Assembly (NCBI GenBank): GCA_017481325.1
Contig: JAFUPG010000025.1
Coordinates: 1 to 28,226, forward strand
Source of the DNA: Oscillospiraceae bacterium
GTDB lineage: Bacteria; Bacillota_A; Clostridia; Oscillospirales; Oscillospiraceae
Length of the DNA stretch: 28,226 nt
Direction of reading: 5' to 3'
In this document: in pieces, positions 17,727 through 27,331 of the stretch
Numbering within the stretch: position 1 is the first letter of the stretch
Layout: the number at the start of each line of letters is the position of its first letter
Position numbers and translations under genes: made by a program
The notes under the pieces: generated by a model
Databases searched by the model: none
Told to the model about the DNA's origin: nothing
The model's input: the letters and a program-made list of their open reading frames with translations, nothing else

Positions 17727-17802
17727 GCTACTGTGGCTCAGCAGGTAGAGCAGCTGATTCGTAATCAGCAGGTCGCCGGTTCGAGTCCGGCCAGTAGCTC
17801 CA
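17727..17802 (+). tRNA. tRNA-Thr (anticodon CGT), CCA encoded
   Basis: The 76 bases fold into a complete cloverleaf: acceptor GCTACTG/CAGTAGC, D stem GCTC/GAGC, anticodon stem GCTGA/TCAGC with loop TTCGTAA (anticodon CGT, codon ACG), and T arm GCCGG-TTCGAGT-CCGGC. Discriminator T and CCA are encoded. It has its own promoter and terminator. Confidence 0.97.
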
Positions 17803-17804
17803 TG

Positions 17805-17840
17805 AAAAACGACAAGTTTCGACAGAAACTTGTCGTTTTT
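17805..17840 (+). terminator. Terminator of the tRNA-Thr unit
   Basis: A perfect 16-bp stem (17805-17820 and 17825-17840) with loop GACA has an A-run on the left and a T-run on the right, so it can act in both directions. A hairpin array begins directly after the T-run. Confidence 0.9.
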
Positions 17841-18020
17841 CAATGATATCCGTTCCTTACAGAACGGATGATATACCCTGCGGGCATGATATCTGCTTCG
17901 CAGATGATATACGCTTTGCGTATGAAGGAACGGATATTATATCATGCTTGCGAAGCAAGTATATCATGCGGCGAATGCCGTATATCATATTGCGCAAGCA
18001 ATATATCATTAAAGAACCGC
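17841..18020. repeat. Hairpin array, copy 1
   Basis: About 180 bp of consecutive small hairpins with 3-6-base loops, for example CCGTTC/GAACGG, ATCTGC/GCAGAT, ATACGC/GCGTAT, CTTGC/GCAAG and ATTGC/GCAAT. ATGATAT(A) spacers separate them in the left half and TATATCAT in the right half. GATATCCGTTCCTT at the left can also pair with AAGGAACGGATAT in the middle. No plausible gene is present; short ORFs here are by-products of the repeats. Confidence 0.9.
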
Positions 18021-18315
18021 CAGCGCCACCCGAGGGATTGCCCCGGGTGGCGCTGCTTAGTATGCCAAAAAGTATCGTAGTATAAAATGTCATTGCGAGG
18101 AGGCATTTATGCCGACGTGGCAATCCGTACTCCTATTCGCACTGCCTCAGGAGATCGGCGCTGCCATAAAAGGGGGAGCGGATTGCCACGGCTCACTCTG
18201 TGAGCCTCGCAATGACAGTTGTAATAGATAGTACCCATTTCTGTTCAAAAAGTCTGCTTATTTGTGGATTTTCATAACAGTGACAAGGTTTTTCGACAGT
18301 CTCAGCGCCACCCGG
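18021..18315. repeat. MITE-like element, copy 1, right end truncated
   Basis: It begins with a 35-base GC-rich hairpin (18021-18055, CAGCGCCACCCG/CGGGTGGCGCTG). An inverted-repeat core follows (18088-18217) with 13-bp ends TGTCATTGCGAGG/CCTCGCAATGACA and inner arms CGTGGCAATCC/GGATTGCCACG, then an AT-rich tail. The closing hairpin survives only as its first ~13 bases (18303-18315). No transposase or coding signal is seen. Confidence 0.8.
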
Positions 18316-18324
18316 AGCTCCGGA

Positions 18325-18356
18325 AAAAAGCACTTGCTTCGGCAAGTGCTTTTTTC
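18325..18356. terminator. Bidirectional terminator hairpin next to array copy 2
   Basis: A perfect 14-bp stem AAAAAAGCACTTGC/GCAAGTGCTTTTTT with a TTCG loop. In the minus direction it is the first strong terminator after the 1636-residue SLH protein gene, placing array copy 2 in that gene's 3' untranslated region. Confidence 0.85.
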
Positions 18357-18539
18357 AATGATATCCGTTCCTTGGGGAACGGGTGATATATGTTCCATAT
18401 GATATCCACCTTCGGTGGGTGATATATGCCCTCGGCATATGAAGGAACGGATATTATATCATGCTTGCCAAAGGCAAGTATATCATGCGGCGAATGCCGT
18501 ATATCATATTGCGTAAGCAATATATCATTAAAAAACTAC
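18357..18539. repeat. Hairpin array, copy 2
   Basis: It has the same layout as copy 1, but several stems have different sequences that still pair: ATATG/CATAT and CCACC/GGTGG in the left half, ATATGCC/GGCATAT, and CTTGCC/GGCAAG in the right half. Spacers and the outer CCGTTCCTT/AAGGAACGG are unchanged. Confidence 0.9.
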
Positions 18540-18851
18540 CAGCGCCACCCGAGGGTTTTCCCGGGTGGCGCTGCTTAGTATGCTAAAAAGTATCGTAGTA
18601 TAAAATGTCATTGCGAGGAGGCATTTATGCCGACGTGGCAATCCGTTTCCCCCGGCAGTTCCGATCATCTAAGGTAGTGCTAAAAGGAGGACGGATTGCC
18701 ACGGCTCACTCTGTGAGCCTCGCAATGACAGTTGTAAATGGATCGTACCCATTTCTGTTCAAAAAGTCTGCTTATTTATGGATTATCATAACAGTGACAA
18801 GTTTTTTCGACAGTCTCAGCGACACCCGGGGCAATCCCTCGGGTGGCGCTG
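18540..18851. repeat. MITE-like element, copy 2, complete
   Basis: A GC-rich hairpin (18540-18573) and its near-exact inverted counterpart (18817-18851) bound a core with inverted ends TGTCATTGCGAGG/CCTCGCAATGACA (18606-18730). The interior and tail match copy 1 closely. The paralogous site at 25606-25639 has one hairpin and no interior. Confidence 0.8.
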
Positions 18852-18866
18852 TTTGTCTATTAATCC

Positions 18867-19310
18867 CTATTCTACCACATTCTGAATGAAGCGCATCAGG
18901 ATCGTGGCGACCTGGGCTCTGGTGGCGTTGCCCTGGGGTTCCAGGTAGACCTTGCCGCCGGCGGCGGAGCCGGTGACCAGGCCGGTCTTTACCGCCCAGG
19001 ACAGGGCTTCTATGGCATAGCCGCTGACCTTATTGGCATCGGGGAAGGTGGTAATGTCGGCAACATCGGAGGTATCGATGCCGATGGACTTGCAGTAGCG
19101 GTACAGGATCACCGCCAGCTGCTCACGGGTGATCTGTCCGTCGGGGTTGAAGCGGCCGCCGCCGATGCCGGTGACGATGCCGTTCTCCGCCGCCCAGGCC
19201 ACCGCCTGGGTATACCAGACGTTGGATGGCACATCGGTAAAGCTGTTGCTCCCCTCCACCGGCTGGCCTGCGTAGCGCCACAGCACTGTGACCAGCATGG
19301 CTCTGGTCAT
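18867..19310. repeat. 444-bp SLH-coding direct repeat (partner 25673-26116)
   Basis: Aligned by eye without gaps, this block differs from 25673-26116 at about 25 positions, eight of them clustered around codons for the SLH2/SLH3 junction. Outside it the two genes are unrelated, except for the start of SLH1. Confidence 0.9.
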
Positions 19311-22300
19311 AGAGCCCTCCGGCTGGAAGCTGGTGGTGCTCATGCCGTTCATAAGGCCGTGGGAGATCACATAGTCAATACCGGCATGAGACCAGACCCC
19401 TGCAGGGGGCATGTCGGTGAAGTTTCTGCCGGGACAGCTGCTGCCGCCGTCACAGGGCGTGTTGTCTTCTACAGGATCATCGGGATCATCGGGATCGTCA
19501 GGATCGTCGGGATCGTCAGGCGTCTCGCCCAGGGCTGCATTCACGGAGGTAAAAGCGCTGTCATTGGCGCTGTTGTCGTCCTGGGTCTCCAGGGTGATGA
19601 AGTAGACCGTATCCAATTCGGGGGCTACGGCAAAGGATACACCCTGCAAGCCCAAGGCCTCCAGCTTTTCGATGGTCATAGTCTCGACCACTTCGCCCTC
19701 GGCGCTGCCCTTGCGGAGGGAGAGGGTGATGTTTTCCCGGGCATTGTAGCTGCGGTTGACAATGCTGCCGTAGATCACCGCATTGCCGTCGGCACGGTAG
19801 CCCCAGGAAAGGCTCTCCACCGCCAGGTCGTTCCAGTTCAGAGACTGAACGGTCTCGTTGTCCTCGGGATTCAGCTCCTCTGCCTCCAGGGGTGTCAGGC
19901 GGATGGTGATCTCCCTGGGCTTGGTGGCGCTGGGAATGGGCATGGCGCAGGAGAAGGTGATGCTCTGGCCGGGGGCTACGGGCGCCTGTTCCAGATGCTC
20001 CACGGTATAGCCGGTGGTGTTGTCGATGAGTTCTACCTTAATGCCTGCGGCGGTCTCATTTCCGGAGTTGGTGACGGCAAGATCAAAGACCTGATCCTTG
20101 CCGCTGACATAGCAGGAGGCATCCGTATCGGCATAGAGCAGCTGAAGATCCACGCCGTTTTCAACGCTGAGTACCTGCAGGCAGCCTTCGCCGTAGGGGT
20201 TTTCCGTATTTTCGGGGTCAACGGACTTGGTGCAGATGGCAATGTGGAGCTTGCCGCTCTTATCCAGGGCAGCGGAATAGTCATAAATATGCACTGTGCC
20301 GTCGGTCAGCGCCACGGGAGCGCTCCAGACGCCGTCCTGATTCCAGGAGGCATAGAGGGTGGTATACAGGCCGTTTTCGGCGGTGAAGAGGATGGCCTTG
20401 TTCTCCACCAGTTGGAAGACGGGAGACAGGGCAACCTCGCCGGATTCCAGGATCACCTGGCCGTCGGCATAGATCTTGCCGTCGGCATACCAGTAGAGCA
20501 CGCCGTTGCGGTAGCAGAGGTTGGACTCCGCTACCTCATTATCCGTCAGCTGCACGCCGTCCACGAAGATCTCCACGTCCTCGGAGGTGTAGATATCGCC
20601 GTCCGTATCCATGGCCCAGGCGATACGGGCCTTGCCGTTCAGCGTATCGGCCGTGAGGCCGGTGATCATGCCCAGATCGCTGTAGGCGACGGTGGGGCTG
20701 TTCCACATACCGGCAAAACCGGAGGTTGCAGTATAGATCACATTGCCCTCGGGGCTGAACCAGTCGCCGTTGGCATTGCCCTGCCAGATCACCGTCTGAC
20801 TACCGCTCATGGGTGTCGTGCCGGAGGTATCCACGATCACCGGCTGATAGCCCAGAGTGCCGAAGCCGGACACAGAAAAAGGAAGACCGCCATAAGTTCC
20901 GTCAGAGGAGAGCTTGCCTGCCATAATACGGGTGGAGGCATCGGCCAGAGTGCTGCCCTCGGAGAGGGTATCGATCTCCGTCCAGGTCACATAGCCGTCA
21001 TTGACCGAGGCAAAAGCATCCACCGTGCCGTTATCACAGAAAAGCGCAGGCTCGCTCCAGCTGCTGCCGTCGTAGGTAGTGACATAGAGCTGCTGGCCGT
21101 TGGCATCGGTAAATTCGGGATTCTGCGCCACATACAAGAGAGCCAGCTTGCCATTGGACAGGCGCAGCAGCTGGGGATCGGCGCTGTCGGACAGGCCGCT
21201 GAGCAGGACAGCATTGCCATTTTTGGTGCTGCGGTGCCAGGTGCTTTGGGTGGGTGTCTGCAAGGTGTAGGCGGAGCTGTCGTAGAAGTCCGGAGTTGCT
21301 GTGGGATTCTGGGTGTTCTTCGTGTTTCCGGTTTCTGGATATTCGAAGATAATCTCGTCATAAATCGGTGGGAATTCCGGTTTTACCTCGAAAATCGCAA
21401 CATTTCCCTTAATATAGGTTCGCAGCGTCTGGCGACCTACGATATAATCCGTGGTATCCTCATGGATCTCCCAGGTGGTGGTCATGGTGCCCTCCAGGCC
21501 GCCGCTGATGGACAGCGCATCCTTAATGCCCACGCCCAGACCGCCGTTTACCACGGTTTTCCACTCCAGCTCCTTCTCGGGCGTGAAGGCTTTTGCGTCG
21601 GGGTTCACCGACACATTGCCCTGGAAGGACAGGGTGGAGTCCAGGTCGATCTCAAAGAACAGCGGAACCGTACCCACGGCAAAGGGAACACCGTAGCTAA
21701 AGCCACCGTGACCGCTGAGAATATATCCACCGTCAATGAAGATGATCTCGCCCTTGGAGTTCAGGTAGCCCTCAGCGAAGCCCATCACATCAAAGCCTGC
21801 GGAAACAACAAAGGAGCCTTTTCCCTTGCCGACGGGCAGATTGTTCTTGTTCATGAAATCCTGGAGTTCCCGATAGCCCTTGGCTGCATCGACCACACCG
21901 GTTTTCACCTTGTTCATGATGTTTTTGATGCCCAGCACCAGCTGCTTGGGCTTCATACGGCCGCTGCTGTTATCCCAGTCGGACTGTATGCCCATGAGGA
22001 CATAGACCTTTCCGTTCTCGATGGAGCATTTTATCTGGAAGGGAGACCAGATTCCCAGCTTTACCTCTGTGCCTGCCAGAATGGGGCCGGCCTCCTCGCC
22101 CAGGGTAAAGCCAAAACCGCCGCCAAAGCTGAATTCATAGCCCTCCAGCTGCTCCGGCAGGAAGGTATCCACCTTCAATTTCAGGGGGAGACGGACGGTA
22201 TCGCCCTCTTCGTCAATGGCGATCACATCAATGGTCTCGGAAACGTCGAAGCAGTCGCTCCAGGTAACACGGGCAACGCCGTCGGACAGATCTACCTCCT

Positions 22301-23777
22301 TAGCCCCCTGGCGGAGAACCAGCGTTTTGCAGCTGCTTTCGCCCCAGTAGACCTCTGCACGTACCAGCTGGGTGCCGGAGTTCATAAGATCCACCTTGTA
22401 TTCCTTGTGGAGCACATCCACAGAATCGATCCAGACCGCACAGACAGCCGGGAAATCGGATTCCTGCTCCAGGTAGACCTCCGGAGAATCCTCCAGGAAG
22501 GAGCCCCGAACAGAACGGGTCACATAGCCATCCAGGCTGATGGTGGCGCCGCTTCTGGGATAGGGTATGGTGACCTGGCCGTTTTCATCGGTTTTGAACT
22601 TCTGACCGGCGACTTCTACGGTGGCGCCCTCGCTGAGCACATAACGGGGATCGATCACCTGTGCGGCAGACTGATTCTGATAGACCGTCAAATTCAGATG
22701 GGTGGGGTGCTGGCGGTAGATATCGCCCTCGGTGTACTCCTCCCGATCCAGCACCATGGGGTCGATGGTCATGCGGTAGGGGTCCTCATAAGTGCCCTGA
22801 CCCGTGAGGCTCTCAATATAATTCATGGAAATGTTGCAGGCCGGACGGATATGGATAGACTCATCCGCAAATTTATAGGCCGGGCTGTGCATATTGTCGT
22901 AAGCGGTGTTATAGTAGGACTCCTTGCCGGAATAATTCTGGTACATGCCGAACCAGAGATACTGGAGTCCTGCATTAAAGAAGAACAGGGGCGCATCCCG
23001 GAGCCAGTAATCACCGCTTGCCCAGTGAGAATCCACACATTCGCCGGACATCCACATCTGCTCCACATACAAGTTGTACTGCTCTGAACTGAGGAGGAAC
23101 ATATAGTCCTCGGTCACCACATGGGCATAGCCGGCATCCACCAGCTTATAGGCATTCTCGGCATTGGCGCCGTAGTCCTTGAAGTAGGGTGTCCAGGCAT
23201 TGCCAATATGGGCGGGGTCTGTATGGGCAACCAGCGTATTATGTACCGTGGGATTGATCAGCGCAACCTCTTCCTCCAGGAAGTTATCCTGATTCAAAAA
23301 GCCTTCGTAATGCGCATAAGAAGGCGATACATTTTGGGTTGCGGAATCGATGCTGCCACCCACACCGCCGTATAGTCCGGAGTAATCGAAGCAAGTATCC
23401 GTATACTCCACGTCCTCCGCACCGGTGTTGAGGAATTGGCGGACATCACTGGTTCGCCAGGAGGAGGAGCCGTATTTTACCTGCCAGCCGGCGCCGGTAC
23501 GGGTATAGGTGTTCGTGCTGGCATCGAACTCACCCTGAAGGAAGGGGGTAATGCAGAACAGCAGCGCCTCGCCGTCGTCGGTCTCGCAGACATACCAGAC
23601 CAGCTCGGTGCCCTCATAGCTGCCGAAATAGACATAGTTGCCCATTTCCAGCGTATCACCGTAAATATCGCTCCAGGTTTCGCCCATGTCCTCGTCCGCA
23701 GCGGAGACAAAAGGCAGGCAGGACAGAAGCAGCGAAAGCATCAAAAGAACAGAAATCAGTTTTCTTCCGAATTTCAT
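18867..23777 (-). CDS. Large SLH-anchored secreted protein with DUF6273-like and CARDB-like domains
   Basis: This 1636-residue protein starts at ATG 23777 after GAGGG. A signal peptide (residues 1-26, ending VSA) leads into a DUF6273-like domain (~30-330: DVRQFLN, SGDYWLRD, IRPACNI), a family of unknown function common in gut Clostridia surface proteins. A long beta-rich middle and stretches resembling beta-propeller blades (~900-1230: LRLSNGKLALLYVAQNP, GKLHIAICTKS) follow, then a CARDB-like adhesion fold (~1240-1330) and an Asp-Pro-rich linker (repeated DDP). Three SLH domains (from ~1453, 1513 and 1575) end the protein. SLH domains bind pyruvylated wall polymers, so the protein is displayed on the cell surface. 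Ligand or enzyme activity cannot be told. The last 444 bp are nearly the same as those of the SLH gene at 25673. Confidence 0.92.
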   Translation of the reverse strand: MKFGRKLISVLLMLSLLLSCLPFVSAADEDMGETWSDIYGDTLEMGNYVYFGSYEGTELVWYVCETDDGEALLFCITPFLQGEFDASTNTYTRTGAGWQVKYGSSSWRTSDVRQFLNTGAEDVEYTDTCFDYSGLYGGVGGSIDSATQNVSPSYAHYEGFLNQDNFLEEEVALINPTVHNTLVAHTDPAHIGNAWTPYFKDYGANAENAYKLVDAGYAHVVTEDYMFLLSSEQYNLYVEQMWMSGECVDSHWASGDYWLRDAPLFFFNAGLQYLWFGMYQNYSGKESYYNTAYDNMHSPAYKFADESIHIRPACNISMNYIESLTGQGTYEDPYRMTIDPMVLDREEYTEGDIYRQHPTHLNLTVYQNQSAAQVIDPRYVLSEGATVEVAGQKFKTDENGQVTIPYPRSGATISLDGYVTRSVRGSFLEDSPEVYLEQESDFPAVCAVWIDSVDVLHKEYKVDLMNSGTQLVRAEVYWGESSCKTLVLRQGAKEVDLSDGVARVTWSDCFDVSETIDVIAIDEEGDTVRLPLKLKVDTFLPEQLEGYEFSFGGGFGFTLGEEAGPILAGTEVKLGIWSPFQIKCSIENGKVYVLMGIQSDWDNSSGRMKPKQLVLGIKNIMNKVKTGVVDAAKGYRELQDFMNKNNLPVGKGKGSFVVSAGFDVMGFAEGYLNSKGEIIFIDGGYILSGHGGFSYGVPFAVGTVPLFFEIDLDSTLSFQGNVSVNPDAKAFTPEKELEWKTVVNGGLGVGIKDALSISGGLEGTMTTTWEIHEDTTDYIVGRQTLRTYIKGNVAIFEVKPEFPPIYDEIIFEYPETGNTKNTQNPTATPDFYDSSAYTLQTPTQSTWHRSTKNGNAVLLSGLSDSADPQLLRLSNGKLALLYVAQNPEFTDANGQQLYVTTYDGSSWSEPALFCDNGTVDAFASVNDGYVTWTEIDTLSEGSTLADASTRIMAGKLSSDGTYGGLPFSVSGFGTLGYQPVIVDTSGTTPMSGSQTVIWQGNANGDWFSPEGNVIYTATSGFAGMWNSPTVAYSDLGMITGLTADTLNGKARIAWAMDTDGDIYTSEDVEIFVDGVQLTDNEVAESNLCYRNGVLYWYADGKIYADGQVILESGEVALSPVFQLVENKAILFTAENGLYTTLYASWNQDGVWSAPVALTDGTVHIYDYSAALDKSGKLHIAICTKSVDPENTENPYGEGCLQVLSVENGVDLQLLYADTDASCYVSGKDQVFDLAVTNSGNETAAGIKVELIDNTTGYTVEHLEQAPVAPGQSITFSCAMPIPSATKPREITIRLTPLEAEELNPEDNETVQSLNWNDLAVESLSWGYRADGNAVIYGSIVNRSYNARENITLSLRKGSAEGEVVETMTIEKLEALGLQGVSFAVAPELDTVYFITLETQDDNSANDSAFTSVNAALGETPDDPDDPDDPDDPDDPVEDNTPCDGGSSCPGRNFTDMPPAGVWSHAGIDYVISHGLMNGMSTTSFQPEGSMTRAMLVTVLWRYAGQPVEGSNSFTDVPSNVWYTQAVAWAAENGIVTGIGGGRFNPDGQITREQLAVILYRYCKSIGIDTSDVADITTFPDANKVSGYAIEALSWAVKTGLVTGSAAGGKVYLEPQGNATRAQVATILMRFIQNVVE

Positions 23778-23809: not shown

Positions 23810-23838
23810 AGTATACCAAAATTGGGAAATCAAGTCAA
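23810..23838 (-). promoter_or_regulatory. Promoter of the 1636-residue SLH protein gene
   Basis: On the minus strand TTGACT (23838-23833), a 17-bp spacer ending in TTTTGG and TATACT (23815-23810) form a near-consensus promoter. The -35 contains the stop codon (TGA) of the upstream ATPase gene. Confidence 0.85.
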
Positions 23839-24722
23839 GGACGGCTTGCCCCGTGGGAAAGATAATTTCGCTCCGGCAGCGTTTTTTCACGGAGGAGCTT
23901 GTCGCCCTTCTCCCGGAACCGGCGGCTGCGGAGTTCTCGCACGTGTTGATCGTTGACCACCACAGGGATGCAGCGCTCCAGCACCCGGTCGAAAATGCGC
24001 CGGTCATTGAGGTCTGTGGTGTTTTTCAGCTGGTCAATGTGGATATTGGTGGTATAGATGGTGGGGCGGCCGCTGCGGTAACGGCTGTCGATGACGCTGA
24101 AAATCTGCTCTCTGGCATACTCCGAGCTGCGCTCCATGCCCAGATCATCGATGATCAGAAGCTCAAAGGCGCAGAGCCCGTCGATGAAGCGGTTATTCTC
24201 TCCGCTGCGCAGACCGCTGAGCTGATTCAAAATACGGGAACAATTGGTCATCATCACCCGAACACCCCTGTCTAAAAGGGCGTTGGCAATGCAGCCCGCC
24301 AGGAAGCTCTTACCTGTGCCGACGCTGCCCCAGAACAGCAGCCCGATGCCCTCTTTGTAAAACTCCTCCCAATGGCGCACATAGTTCCGGGCACGGCTCA
24401 TGGCCTCCGGGTTGTAGCCCAGATCCGTCTCAAAGGTCTGCTTGCGAAGGCTGGGATTGGGCAGACCGATGGAGCGGTTGCGGTCGATTTCCAGACGGAA
24501 ACGGCGTGCTTTCTCCTCCTCTTCCTCCTGACGCAGCCGCTCCTGCTGGCATTGGCAGGTACAGCGTGGCAGCATCAGATTTCCGCCGATGACAACCTTG
24601 CATTGACGGGGCGTATGACAAATCTTGCAATAGATCAGACCGCTGACAGGATCCAAATACTCACCCATCTGAGGCTGAAGGATCGCAGGTGGGACAGAAA
24701 CAGCTTGAAAAATCTTCTCCAT
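23835..24722 (-). CDS. DnaC/IstB-type AAA+ ATPase (putative helicase loader)
   Basis: This 295-residue protein starts at ATG 24722 with GGAGAG upstream. The N terminus has a cysteine cluster that may bind zinc (YCKICHTP, then RCTCQCQ), followed by a Glu/Arg-rich coil. The AAA+ domain has Walker A GSVGTGKS (~residues 130-140), Walker B LLIIDDLG, sensor YTTNI and an arginine finger region DRVLERC. DnaC/DnaI proteins load the replicative helicase; IstB relatives serve transposases. The neighbour is a RepA_N-type protein with iteron-like repeats between, and no transposase is present, so helicase loading at a plasmid- or ICE-like origin is the better reading. The C-terminal tail is basic and unconserved to my eye. 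Confidence 0.88.
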   Translation of the reverse strand: MEKIFQAVSVPPAILQPQMGEYLDPVSGLIYCKICHTPRQCKVVIGGNLMLPRCTCQCQQERLRQEEEEEKARRFRLEIDRNRSIGLPNPSLRKQTFETDLGYNPEAMSRARNYVRHWEEFYKEGIGLLFWGSVGTGKSFLAGCIANALLDRGVRVMMTNCSRILNQLSGLRSGENNRFIDGLCAFELLIIDDLGMERSSEYAREQIFSVIDSRYRSGRPTIYTTNIHIDQLKNTTDLNDRRIFDRVLERCIPVVVNDQHVRELRSRRFREKGDKLLREKTLPERNYLSHGASRP

Positions 24723-24772
24723 AAAAAATCTCTCCTTTTAATTCTTCTTTTTAATTCTATATATTTAATTAG
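24723..24772. other. AT-rich stretch between iteron-like repeats and ATPase gene
   Basis: About 50 bp, almost only A and T (TTTAATTC repeats, TATATATTTAATTA), lies between the ATPase start and the repeats. Iterons next to an AT-rich stretch is the layout of a DNA-unwinding element at many replication origins; here this is inference. Confidence 0.4.
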
Positions 24773-24882
24773 GTGATCGTTTTCGATTACTCAAGAGTGA
24801 TCATTTTCGATTACTCAAGAGTGATCATTTTCGATTACTCAAGAGTGATCGTTTTCGATTACTCAAGAGTGATCGTTTTCGA
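24773..24882. repeat. 24-bp iteron-like tandem repeats (4.6 copies), candidate replication origin
   Basis: Four full units (24773, 24797, 24821, 24845) and a 14-base partial one share GTGATC(G/A)TTTTCGATTACTCAAGA; only one position varies among the full units (G or A). Each repeat junction is an imperfect palindrome, GATTACTC-AA-GAGTGATC. They lie between the RepA_N-like and DnaC-like genes. No CRISPR-type spacers are present. Confidence 0.9.
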
Positions 24883-24886
24883 GCAG

Positions 24887-25321
24887 TCACAGGGTGGGAA
24901 TTCCGTAGCCATAGGTGCTGAAGCGGGAGCTGCTCTTTTTCTCACGGGTTTTGGGGCTGTCCCTTAAGGATGCAGCGGAGTCTACGGGGATTCGCAGGAA
25001 GATCTTCAAGGGTTTCCCCTGTCCCTGGCGCTGCTTGCGGATCAGGTTGGCCGCCTCCAGATCATCCAGGCCCCTTCTGACCACGACTTTGCTCCGTCCG
25101 GTAACCGCCGCCAGCTCCTCGGCGGTGTAGTAGACAAAGGCGCAGCCGTCCGGATCCTGCCACCTGGGATCGTTGACGGAGAGCCGCCCTCGTTCCAGCA
25201 GGAGGATGTACAGCAGCTTTGCCGTATCACTGAGCTTCTCCTTCAGCAAGAAGCGTGGATAGGCCAGGTAGGCAGGAAACACCCCGTCCCCCCGCAGCGC
25301 TCTGGTCTCATAATCATACAT
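24887..25321 (-). CDS. RepA_N-type replication initiator, N-terminal domain only
   Basis: This 144-residue protein starts at ATG 25321 with AGAGGTGAT upstream. Residues ~15-115 match the RepA_N winged-helix domain of plasmid and conjugative-element initiators: FPAYLAYPRFLLKE, LSDTAKLLYILLLERGRLS, YYTAEELAAVTGRS and IRKQRQGQGKPLKIFLRI. RepA_N proteins normally run to 250 residues or more; here only a basic, low-complexity tail (REKKSSSRFSTYGYG) follows, so the C-terminal domain is missing. The stop lies at the edge of the iteron-like repeats. It probably binds these repeats and recruits the ATPase encoded after them (inference). Confidence 0.8.
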   Translation of the reverse strand: MYDYETRALRGDGVFPAYLAYPRFLLKEKLSDTAKLLYILLLERGRLSVNDPRWQDPDGCAFVYYTAEELAAVTGRSKVVVRRGLDDLEAANLIRKQRQGQGKPLKIFLRIPVDSAASLRDSPKTREKKSSSRFSTYGYGIPTL

Positions 25322-25389: not shown

Positions 25390-25423
25390 AAAAAAGAACT
25401 TCACGGGAGTGAAGTCCTTTTTT
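25390..25423. terminator. Bidirectional terminator hairpin next to array copy 3
   Basis: A 15-bp stem with one mismatch (25390-25404 and 25409-25423), loop GGGA, has six A at the left and six T at the right. In the minus direction it ends transcription of the 532-residue SLH gene before the RepA_N-like gene. Confidence 0.8.
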
Positions 25424-25639
25424 CAATGATATCCGTTCCTTGGGGAACGGGTGATATATGTTCCATATGATATCCACCTTCGGTGGGTGATATATGCTTT
25501 GCATATGAAGGAACGGATATTATATCATGCTTGCCAAAGGCAAGTATATCATGCGGCGAATGCCGTATATCATATTGCGTAAGCAATATATCATTAAAGA
25601 ACCGCCAGCGCCACCCGAGGGGTTTCCCGGGTGGCGCTG
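25424..25639. repeat. Hairpin array, copy 3, with GC-rich closing hairpin
   Basis: It is nearly identical to copy 2, with one stem shortened (ATATGC-TTT-GCATAT). It ends in the GC-rich hairpin 25606-25639 and then joins the SLH 3' flank directly, without the MITE-like interior found after copy 2. Confidence 0.9.
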
Positions 25640-25672: not shown

Positions 25673-26116
25673 CTATTCTACCACATTCTGAATGAAGCGC
25701 ATGAGGATGGTGGCAACCTGGGCTCTGGTGGCGTTGCCCTGGGGTTCCAGGTAGACCTTGCCGCCGGCGGCGGAGCCGGTGACCAGGCCGGTCTTTACCG
25801 CCCAGGACAGGGCTTCTATGGCATAGCCGCTGACCTGATTGGCATCGGGGAAGGTGGTGATGTCGGCAACATCGGAGGTATCGATGCCGATGGACTTGCA
25901 GTAGCGGTAGAGGATCACTGCCAGCTGCTCACGGCTCAGGCTGCCTTCGGGGTTGAAGCGGCCGCCGCCGATACCGGTGACGATGCCGTTCTCCGCCGCC
26001 CAGTCCACCGCCTGGGTATACCAGACGTTAGAGGGCACATCGGTGAAGCTGTTGCTCCCCTCTACCGGCTGGCCTGCATAGCGCCAGAGAACGGTGACCA
26101 GCATGGCTCTGGTCAT
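25673..26116. repeat. 444-bp SLH-coding direct repeat (partner 18867-19310)
   Basis: This is the second copy of the SLH-coding block, in the same orientation and about 6.8 kb away. With the adjoining hairpin array it forms a roughly 0.7-kb homology region able to support recombination. Confidence 0.9.
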
Positions 26117-27271
26117 GGGTGCATCGGGAGCAAATTGATTGTCCCCCACCCCCTTCATCAGGCCGTGGAGCACTGCGTAATCCACCGCAGAGGCATACCA
26201 GACATTCTCCGGCACGTCGTCAAAGGGCGGCGCCCACAGCGCCGTGGGGTAGCCGTGCCAGAGGGGACTTGTCCAGCCCTGTGCATCGGGCGCATAGTAA
26301 AGGGTCAGTCCCGGCAGAGGCACGTAGCCGCCGGGGGCATCGTTGTCAAAGGCGTGCTCGCCCAGGGTGGGGGCATCGCCGTAAAAACGAATTTGGGTCA
26401 GGCTGTCGCAATCGGCAAAGGCATAGCTGCCGATGCTGCGGAGATTCTTGCCAATGCTTACTTCCTCCAGTGCGCCGCAGAAGGCGAAGGCCTTGTCTCC
26501 GATGTGCTGAACACCGCTGCCGATCTCCAGGAATTTCAAGGCGGCGCAATACCGGAAGGCGGCATTTTCGATGGTCAGTACAGCATCGGGAATCGAGAGC
26601 TGCTCTAAATTGGTGCAGTAGTAAAAGCTCTCGGCACCGATGTTGCGCAGGTTCTCGGGAAGCGTGATCCCGGTCAGGGCGGTGCAGCCGTAAAAGGCGC
26701 CTCCGGCGATCACACGGGTTTTTTCGGGCAATTCCACTGCGCCCTTGAGGCTCGTCTTGGCTGCAAGCAGCACAGAATCCGCATAAAGGAGGTCATTTTC
26801 CCAATTTTTCTCTCTGCGGAGATAGGCGGCGCCCCAGAAGGCATCTCTGCCCACGGAGCGGATCTCGCCGCCGAAGGTGATTTCTTCCAGATTGGTGCAA
26901 TCGAAAAAGGCCCGGTCTTCGATGGTGAGCAGGCTGTCGGGGAAGCTCAGAGCGCCCAGGCCGTAGCAGTAGGCGAAGCTCATATCACCGATCCGCTCCA
27001 GCCCCTCGGAGAAGCTCACGCTACGGAGATTTTCGCAATAGTCGAAGGCAAGATCTCCGATGGCGCTCACCGGGATGCCCTGAATTTCTGCCGGGATGTC
27101 TGCCGCTGTCACAGCGTGGTCACAATCGACGATGGTTCCGCTGTGGGGGTCAAAATACAGATTTCCGCCCTCCACGGGGTAGCTCAGCCGCTCCTGTGCG
27201 CTGACCGAAAGGGGGCATAGGGTAATCAGAAGGGCAACAGCAAGACCCAGCAAAAGAAATCGTACTCTCAT
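25673..27271 (-). CDS. SLH-anchored surface protein with BspA-like leucine-rich repeats
   Basis: The start is ATG 27271 (532 residues), with GGGGAGG eight bases upstream; an in-frame upstream extension to 27331 would cover the promoter. The signal peptide (MRVRFLLLGLAVALLITLCPLSVSA) is followed by LRR_5/BspA-type repeats (~50-330), each of the form IG-x-x-AFxxCxxLxxVxxxxxLxxI. SLH domains begin near 350 (FDDVPENVWYASAVDYAVLHGLMKG), 409 and 471. BspA-like repeats often mediate binding to host or matrix proteins; the SLH domains hold the protein at the wall. The 3' end shares a near-identical 444-bp block with the gene at 18867. It is monocistronic, with its own promoter and a terminator beyond the hairpin array. 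Confidence 0.93.
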   Translation of the reverse strand: MRVRFLLLGLAVALLITLCPLSVSAQERLSYPVEGGNLYFDPHSGTIVDCDHAVTAADIPAEIQGIPVSAIGDLAFDYCENLRSVSFSEGLERIGDMSFAYCYGLGALSFPDSLLTIEDRAFFDCTNLEEITFGGEIRSVGRDAFWGAAYLRREKNWENDLLYADSVLLAAKTSLKGAVELPEKTRVIAGGAFYGCTALTGITLPENLRNIGAESFYYCTNLEQLSIPDAVLTIENAAFRYCAALKFLEIGSGVQHIGDKAFAFCGALEEVSIGKNLRSIGSYAFADCDSLTQIRFYGDAPTLGEHAFDNDAPGGYVPLPGLTLYYAPDAQGWTSPLWHGYPTALWAPPFDDVPENVWYASAVDYAVLHGLMKGVGDNQFAPDAPMTRAMLVTVLWRYAGQPVEGSNSFTDVPSNVWYTQAVDWAAENGIVTGIGGGRFNPEGSLSREQLAVILYRYCKSIGIDTSDVADITTFPDANQVSGYAIEALSWAVKTGLVTGSAAGGKVYLEPQGNATRAQVATILMRFIQNVVE

Positions 27272-27302
27272 TTGGTGACCTCCCCTCCGTTTTGTCTGCT
27301 TT

Positions 27303-27331
27303 AGTATACCAAATCCAGAGGAGCAAGTCAA
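27303..27331 (-). promoter_or_regulatory. Promoter of the 532-residue SLH protein gene
   Basis: On the minus strand TTGACT (27331-27326), a 17-bp spacer ending in TTTGG and TATACT (27308-27303) closely match the promoter of the other SLH gene. The -35 again contains the stop codon of the upstream reading frame. Confidence 0.85.

Follow-up and report, generated by a model that had tools for sequence, protein, structure and literature searches.

Three arrays of hairpins in the window

The window, i.e., the whole stretch of 28,226 nucleotides that was analysed, contains three copies of an array of short hairpins, two of them at a site described in an earlier note made from the sequence alone and a third one further downstream (Table 1). 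The latter had escaped the earlier note, as had the tRNA gene and the terminator on the left side and the promoter found on the right side in relatives. Array 1 is built of four left linkers with four hairpins, a centre and four right linkers with three hairpins. Arrays 2 and 3 lack a tRNA gene like the tRNA-Thr gene upstream of array 1, but are equally preceded by a terminator-like hairpin. All stem pairs quoted in the note are present (CCC/GGG versus ATATG/CATAT, ATCTGC/GCAGAT versus CCACC/GGTGG and CTTGC/GCAAG versus CTTGCC/GGCAAG), as is the outer CCGTTCCTT/AAGGAACGG pair. The triple TATATCAT spacing occurs six times in the window versus zero times in 100 shuffles, and single-strand folding yielded z values of –5.9 for array 1 (as RNA) and –6.4 for array 2 (as DNA). 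In the RNA fold of array 1, several left linkers pair with right ones, resulting in a ladder with hairpins on both sides.

Table 1. Coordinates of the arrays, their parts and the features preceding them in the window.
Feature	Position	Strand	Basis
tRNA-Thr (anticodon CGT) gene, directly upstream of array 1	17727–17799	+	Rfam RF00005, 71.8 bits
h0, tRNA terminator-like hairpin, perfect 18 bp, A run/T run	17803–17842	+	Inverted repeat I4, 100% complementary
Array 1, full mirrored element	17841–18009	+	Gut-1 match 17841–17915, 51.9 bits
Array 1, hairpin 1 (CCGTTCC..GAACGG)	17850–17867	+	Alignment; position derived from the alignment row of array 1
Array 1, hairpin 2 (CCC/GGG), including linker bases pairing beneath	17873–17887	+	Alignment, structure count
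Array 1, hairpin 3 (ATCTGC/GCAGAT)	17891–17905	+	Alignment, structure count
Array 1, hairpin 4 (ATACGC/GCGTAT)	17909–17923	+	Alignment, structure count
Array 1, centre AAGGAACGGATAT, complementary to the 5' arm of hairpin 1	17925–17937	+	Inverted repeat I6
Array 1, hairpin 5 (CTTGC/GCAAG)	17946–17960	+	Alignment, structure count
Array 1, hairpin 6	17968–17981	+	Alignment, structure count
Array 1, hairpin 7	17988–18003	+	Alignment, structure count
Terminator-like hairpin preceding array 2	18323–18356	+	Inverted repeat I15, 100% complementary
Array 2, second full element	18356–18528	+	Gut-1 match 18356–18450, 57.6 bits
Terminator-like hairpin preceding array 3	25390–25425	+	Read from sequence
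Array 3, third full element	25424–25594	+	Gut-1 match 25424–25498, 58.1 bits

Since all three copies exceed the gathering threshold (50 bits) of the Rfam family Gut-1 (RF01706), the earlier statement that no named family has this design was wrong. Gut-1 was first described from human-gut metagenomes and, in the available part of that report, is rated “RNA? Y” and listed for the human gut only (Weinberg et al., 2010; PMC2864571). The Gut-1 model spans the left half of the element only; on the minus strand, it also recognises the right halves of arrays 1 and 2, with low scores (27.6 and 30.1 bits, the latter at 18475–18544), and some opposite-strand halves in relatives exceed the threshold. Six array genomes contain 9–79 Gut-1 matches each (E 0.001, both strands). 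The right ends in the window read ATATCATTA and are devoid of the TTGA end seen in other copies, and no PF05635-type protein is encoded in the window. The window copies are array-only derivatives or members of an element family that includes Gut-1.

Regarding the surroundings, arrays 1 and 2 both lie within a tandem duplication of about 515 bp (17836–18330 and 18351–18850), in which a CAGCGCCACCCG hairpin is also found, along with a palindrome of the form TGTCATTGCGAGG...CCTCGCAATGACA. The arrays adjoin the 3' ends of the genes of two S-layer-homology proteins (18867–23777 and 25673–27331, minus strand) of 1636 and 552 amino acids, the shorter of which has BspA-type leucine-rich repeats. Between the two array sites sits a gene with a RepA_N match (144 amino acids) beside a gene for an IstB/DnaC-like ATPase (295 amino acids), the pair covering 23835–25321 on the minus strand. 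Array 1 (17838–18012) had no blastn match among 72,556 plasmid and 50,697 phage records, and a loose scan of viral contigs for the triple TATATCAT returned 44 stretches, which by eye were of low complexity or unrelated and in no case contained the array. A sigma-factor/tRNA search found no close relative of the window in the group of the array genome G002 (best long match about 74% identity).

Mirrored anatomy and covariation of the stems

Further copies were collected from genome contigs by a search pattern composed of the end of the centre (GATAT) and the first three right linkers, which matched at least 114 stretches; 122 copies, including the three of the window, were analysed. Among the matches listed (80 stretches), the hosts are MAGs labelled as Clostridia, Oscillospiraceae or related groups, many of them from the ruminant gut. 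The left end was recognisable in 106 of the 122 copies, and in 83 of these 106 the span from ATGATAT to the last TATATCAT detected is 165–174 bp. The element of about 170 bp comprises four linkers (ATGATATA) alternating with hairpins, a centre and four reverse-complement linkers with hairpins: in the left half, CAATGATAT is followed by hairpins 1–4, each separated from the next by a linker, and by the centre AAGGAACGGATAT, after which come the TATATCAT linkers of the right half with hairpins 5–7 between them. Many copies end with ATATCATTG and feature terminal inverted repeats (CAATGATAT.../...ATATCATTG) of the MITE type. In two copies (L095 and L106), the TATATCAT right half is joined to a left half of another kind, whose hairpins come with CTTCATTA linkers, and in L073 the region of hairpin 4 holds a second, nested hairpin, giving an element of 200 bp.

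Because the first three right linkers and the preceding GATAT were prescribed by the search pattern, their invariance is built in, and linker conservation is to be read only from the linkers on the left and the last one on the right; these, as well as the stems, were not constrained by the pattern. In an alignment of 50 sequences, three of them from the window, the left linkers are conserved in sequence, and so is the centre AAGGAACGGATAT, whose GATAT end is part of the pattern. The earlier suggestion that pairing rather than sequence is conserved is supported for the stems, the left linkers being conserved in sequence.

For the stems, the seven-hairpin structure of this alignment comprises 44 base pairs and 2131 cells, of which 96.6% pair. 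Changes on both sides occurred at 19 of the 44 base pairs, in 178 cells. Neither the paired fraction nor the number of double-changed pairs or double-changed cells was reached by any of 500 shuffles, and one of the 500 attained the number of further pair types. Sliding the partner by 1–3 columns left at most 49.2% of the cells paired and at most 41 double-changed, a control which favours the drawn structure because it was drawn on the same alignment. In an alignment-free test, each 5' arm was compared with its own partner and with the partners of other copies at those positions at which the copies have different 5' arms; this test is informative for hairpins 1 and 3 and the right half, while hairpins 2 and 4 are covered by the alignment test. 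For hairpin 3 (13-nt class), the own partner matched at 0.965 versus 0.019 for that of another copy, and for the right-half hairpins at 0.64–1.00 versus 0.00–0.18. The result was not significant for hairpin 1 in the 18-nt class and R2 of the right half in the 11-nt class (141 and 140 of 500 permutations, respectively). The two arms of a stem hence change together in the 50 copies as had been described for the window, with 178 double-changed cells unmatched in 500 shuffles.

Loops are most often of the type TNC/TNNC in the left half and GNA/GNNA in the right half, i.e., reverse complements of each other; UNCG loops on the left, which had been taken as a sign of RNA, were dropped in view of these counts. 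Mismatches in the stems, read on the plus strand, amount to 5 G–T versus 7 A–C in the left half and 19 G–T versus 6 A–C in the right half. The G–T excess on the right is as expected of a folded plus strand, and the left half is without such excess. Mirrored loops and the absence of a mismatch bias on the left point to symmetry at the DNA level, although an RNA reading is still compatible with them.

Stable-RNA terminators, promoter-like sequences and PF05635 genes at the flanks

Among the 111 copies with at least 300 nt of upstream sequence, 62 have a tRNA gene upstream on the same strand (with fewer than 250 nt between the end of the tRNA and the centre), and 55 of the 57 tRNA-linked copies with a measured left end start 30–46 nt after the tRNA. 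These tRNAs are of 31 kinds, tRNA-Thr(cgt) as in the window being the commonest (7/62), and a tRNA gene on the opposite strand was found within 400 nt of none of the collected copies. A tmRNA gene lies upstream in 2 of 18 non-tRNA loci scanned with Rfam. Further, a T run of at least four precedes the element within 12 nt in 88 of 104 copies, and the upstream 52-mer has an MFE of –12 kcal/mol or lower in 101 of 104 copies versus 21 of 87 control windows. The hairpin h0 was at one point regarded as part of the element; this was dropped since such hairpins are also seen behind other tRNAs at orthologous sites that carry no array, which identifies the h0-type hairpin as the tRNA's own terminator. 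At L265 and L273, inserts with a sequence resembling a reversed tRNA T arm (GGACTCGAAC...) were noted by eye between the conserved genes for tRNA-Arg and tRNA-His.

The occupancy of such sites is patchy. In the genus-level group of G002, 3 of 24 tRNA-His orthologues are occupied (G002 included, with three linker types) and 21 are empty; in the group of G001, the same holds for 2 of 11 tRNA-Leu(tag) orthologues (G001 included, two types), with 9 empty. This amounts to 30 empty sites out of 35 in a comparison made between species of about 70% identity, not strains, with one short row dropped per set. At the five occupied sites, the array starts directly after the terminator-like hairpin. This presence/absence polymorphism is a further MITE-type feature, here at the interspecies level. 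The junctions lie in T-rich terminator tracts with no clean target duplication by eye, and neither a mobilising enzyme nor a target duplication nor an excised form was found. Of the three readings offered in the earlier note, a structured RNA 3' element, a REP-like array and a mobile DNA, the last one fits best, because orthologous tRNA 3' sites are occupied in only 3/24 and 2/11 cases.

On the right side, 48 of 120 copies end with TTGA and 72 are without it. Read as a –35 element, this TTGA is followed in 35 of the 48 copies by a –10 element of 5/6 matches or better at a distance of 15–20 nt, in 30 of them at exactly 17 nt; the same TATAAT-like box is present in 5 of the 72 copies without the TTGA end and in 5.4% of 3930 control windows. 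The array is in these copies fused to a promoter-like sequence. Fifteen of 94 downstream ORFs form one BLAST cluster, with one member (L149) on the opposite strand, and 79 fall outside of it. One cluster member was scanned and matched PF05635 (23S_rRNA_IVP) and TIGR02436 (four helix bundle protein) with 83.4 and 91.1 bits; its only strong match by sequence to a solved structure is 2rld, one entry with five chains.

TIGR02436 was found in 25 of 25 array genomes versus 0 of 14 controls, 13 of the 25 having been chosen for a gene beside the array; it is also present in the 12 genomes chosen without regard to gene adjacency, in G004 as a fragment only. In the phylum, 52 of 299 genomes score above the family cut-off, G002 among them. 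We further inspected the context of 75 distinct genes for which 450 nt or more of upstream sequence was available; 48 of these genes were found independently of the array pattern. A tRNA gene on the same strand lies within 450 nt upstream of 47 of the 75 genes and of 27 of the 48 independent ones (at L149 it is on the opposite strand). An array match lies upstream of 40 of the 75, including about seven weak ones (<30 bits) and two in opposite orientation (L149 and L247), and of 14 of the 48 found without the array pattern. Upstream of other subfamilies, the same layout was recognised by eye with other linkers, e.g., GTGATG, ATGATG, GTGAAG, ATGAAGC, TGAAATA, TGAATTG and more; no linker was detected upstream of 10 of the 75 genes, and several others show low-complexity (inverted) repeats only.

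This variety of linkers allowed a comparison with the proteins, for which 46 genes with at least 3 + 3 linkers were assigned to motif classes of our own choosing, ten of these being singletons. Protein identity was 0.819 within versus 0.495 between linker classes (0 of 1000 permutations), and the nearest neighbour belonged to the same class for 35 of the 46 genes, under 70% identity for 13 of 46. Linker class follows protein subfamily among closer relatives, and this relation weakens at distance. As array and gene are physically linked, the correspondence could also reflect co-inheritance; a protein–linker code draws support only from the correspondence combined with the conserved left linkers versus the free stems. 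The PF05635 genes of the other linker classes have a promoter in 16 of 35 rows versus 206 of 1300 shuffles (drawn from all linker-bearing rows), with the –35 element within 2 nt of the last right linker in 8 of 35.

Genes situated behind the PF05635 gene or the array encode, among others, methyltransferase, NUDIX, GNAT, histidine phosphatase, nucleotidyltransferase, HAD, DMP19, DUF4288 and tRNA-synthetase domain proteins; 7 of 20 such neighbours tested had no Pfam match. Units also occur in tandem, as at L159 with the order tRNA-Arg, array, ORF, ORF, array, ORF, ORF, array.

A phylum-wide search gave a further set of 30 PF05635 genes (L309–L338), its best-scoring loci, which have no tRNA gene within up to 500 nt upstream. 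Strong short-period repeats stand just upstream of 19 of these 30 genes versus 74 of 1200 same-locus control windows, in a rather lenient test with controls farther from the gene, a wider set of periods and lower thresholds. Under the stricter threshold (99th percentile), 5 of the 30 genes pass, because some control windows hold repeats too. The repeats, which are degenerate, have a period of 7 at 18 of the 19 repeat-bearing genes, and since 58 of the 74 passing control windows share this period, it is not confined to the gene start. Three of the 30 genes (L322, L330 and L338) lie in what we take, by eye, to be 23S insertions.

A possible selfish element and its relation to known systems

Taken as a whole, we regard it as an even chance that the arrays are the cis-acting part of a selfish, cassette-like element residing behind stable-RNA terminators, whose linkers are read by a cognate four-helix-bundle protein. 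Such an element would insert directly after the terminator hairpin of tRNA and tmRNA genes, which presupposes active mobility and an enzyme for it. The eight heptamer-like linkers, four forward and four inverted, would represent its sequence-specific part and most likely serve as binding sites of the cognate PF05635 protein (23S IVP/S23, Avd-like). The hairpins could be structural spacers, which need only to pair and bring the linkers together, and left and right linkers may pair as well to form a ladder of four-way junctions. In complete elements, the last linker overlaps the –35 element of a consensus promoter that precedes the gene for the four-helix-bundle protein, an overlap that would allow autoregulation. 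Sometimes a small further gene follows, and the neighbours listed above might represent cargo; whole units can stack in tandem behind one tRNA gene.

Several other explanations have to be weighed against this. The array could be a structured RNA, which is produced by read-through from the tRNA operon and acts as sRNA or 3' element. Stems pairing with double changes, the common strand of array and tRNA, the G–T excess in the right half and the rating of Gut-1 as certainly RNA (“Y”) in the available part of Weinberg et al. (2010; PMC2864571) are in favour of this option, which we nonetheless consider unlikely: left-half mismatches are unbiased, the loops that prevail in one half are the reverse complements of those in the other, and in copies ending at a –35 box a downstream promoter would leave the array untranscribed. 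What speaks in particular against the structured RNA 3' element of the earlier note is that a T run precedes the start of the array and that the halves of the array match the Gut-1 model in opposite orientation. The location between a tRNA or tmRNA terminator and a promoter-like sequence would also suit a transcription boundary of the host, i.e., an insulator behind very active stable-RNA genes, which e.g., absorbs supercoils or stops read-through. Such a role appears quite improbable given that most of the orthologous tRNA sites inspected lack the array, that the same site holds different linker types in different species and that the linker class tracks the linked protein gene; moreover, no tRNA gene lies upstream of arrays 2 and 3 in the window.

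Two further options concern the origin of the palindromes. Template switching at replication could correct short palindromes and thereby produce stem covariation without any selection for pairing, in line with near-perfect palindromes of free sequence and with the DNA-like symmetry of the loops. We hold this for very improbable, as it leaves the conserved left linkers, the mirrored layout in several linker classes and the position behind tRNA genes unexplained. Lowest of all we rank, as hardly probable, the option that a Y1 (RAYT) transposase acting on folded single strands has spread a repeat of the REP/BIME type. It would agree with palindromic copies being scattered over intergenic DNA and with Y1_Tnp (PF01797) being present in 13 of 25 array genomes; however, only four genomes have matches stronger than 1e-15, 12 of the 25 have no match (the MAGs may be incomplete), none of five scanned window proteins is Y1_Tnp, and relatives have PF05635 instead. 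With Y1_Tnp in only 13 of 25 genomes and PF05635 as the linked protein, the search for a REP-associated transposase speaks against the REP-like array of the earlier note.

The selfish-element reading can be extended to the protein family as such. Here, we hypothesize that each PF05635 subfamily has its own linker, which in the arrays of this gut lineage alternates with hairpins of free sequence in a mirrored arrangement. Orphan PF05635/S23 proteins could accordingly be sequence-specific rings on heptamer linkers and would constitute, together with their cargo, a new class of selfish elements at stable-RNA terminators; we put this forward tentatively, as a possibility that is less probable than not. 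A ring on tandem heptamers is suggested by the period-7 repeats, the heptameric tandem repeats that precede the S23p gene in the Coxiella IVS, the toroidal homopentamer of a Xanthomonas relative (both according to the available text of PMC4990558, the latter as cited there) and the resemblance of PF05635 to Avd described in the accessible part of PMC10053308. If true, this would account for Gut-1, IVS and arrays together. The binding of TRAP to RNA repeats is in principle a comparable mode.

Such a system would join an Rfam “sRNA” and the 23S IVP/S23 family of unknown function into one testable and probably mobile unit, and would predict a protein–linker code. It would also imply that an element with the same symmetry on either strand of the DNA can show strong stem covariation, which is usually taken to prove a functional RNA. 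Should the cassettes move, they might provide a route of gene transfer in gut Clostridia. No description of such a system or route was found in the literature searched, which comprised few subscription papers and no preprints.

Compared with known systems, the element shares with Gut-1 the three linked hairpins and the conserved linkers, but differs from the Gut-1 model by the added inverted half, the frequent tRNA upstream and, in some copies, the promoter-like end and the PF05635 gene. The linker of the window is TGATATA in contrast to the Gut-1 consensus TGAAAT, a class also found at L168, L190 and L124. With REP/BIME sequences, the arrays have in common the dispersed intergenic palindromes; their architecture differs from the REP/BIME hallmarks, and unlike in RAYT systems there is no consistent Y1 transposase. 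The accessory protein Avd of DGRs is a point of contact on the protein side, since PF05635 is described as resembling it; a reverse transcriptase was not among the genes noticed beside the arrays. The 23S rRNA IVS with S23/IVP, e.g., of Coxiella, likewise combines the same protein family with adjacent short repeats. However, these IVS reside inside the 23S rRNA, whereas the Rfam scan of the window yielded no rRNA at gathering score and array 1 follows tRNA-Thr: the elements described here are located behind tRNA or tmRNA genes, and their linkers are separated by hairpins and mirrored.
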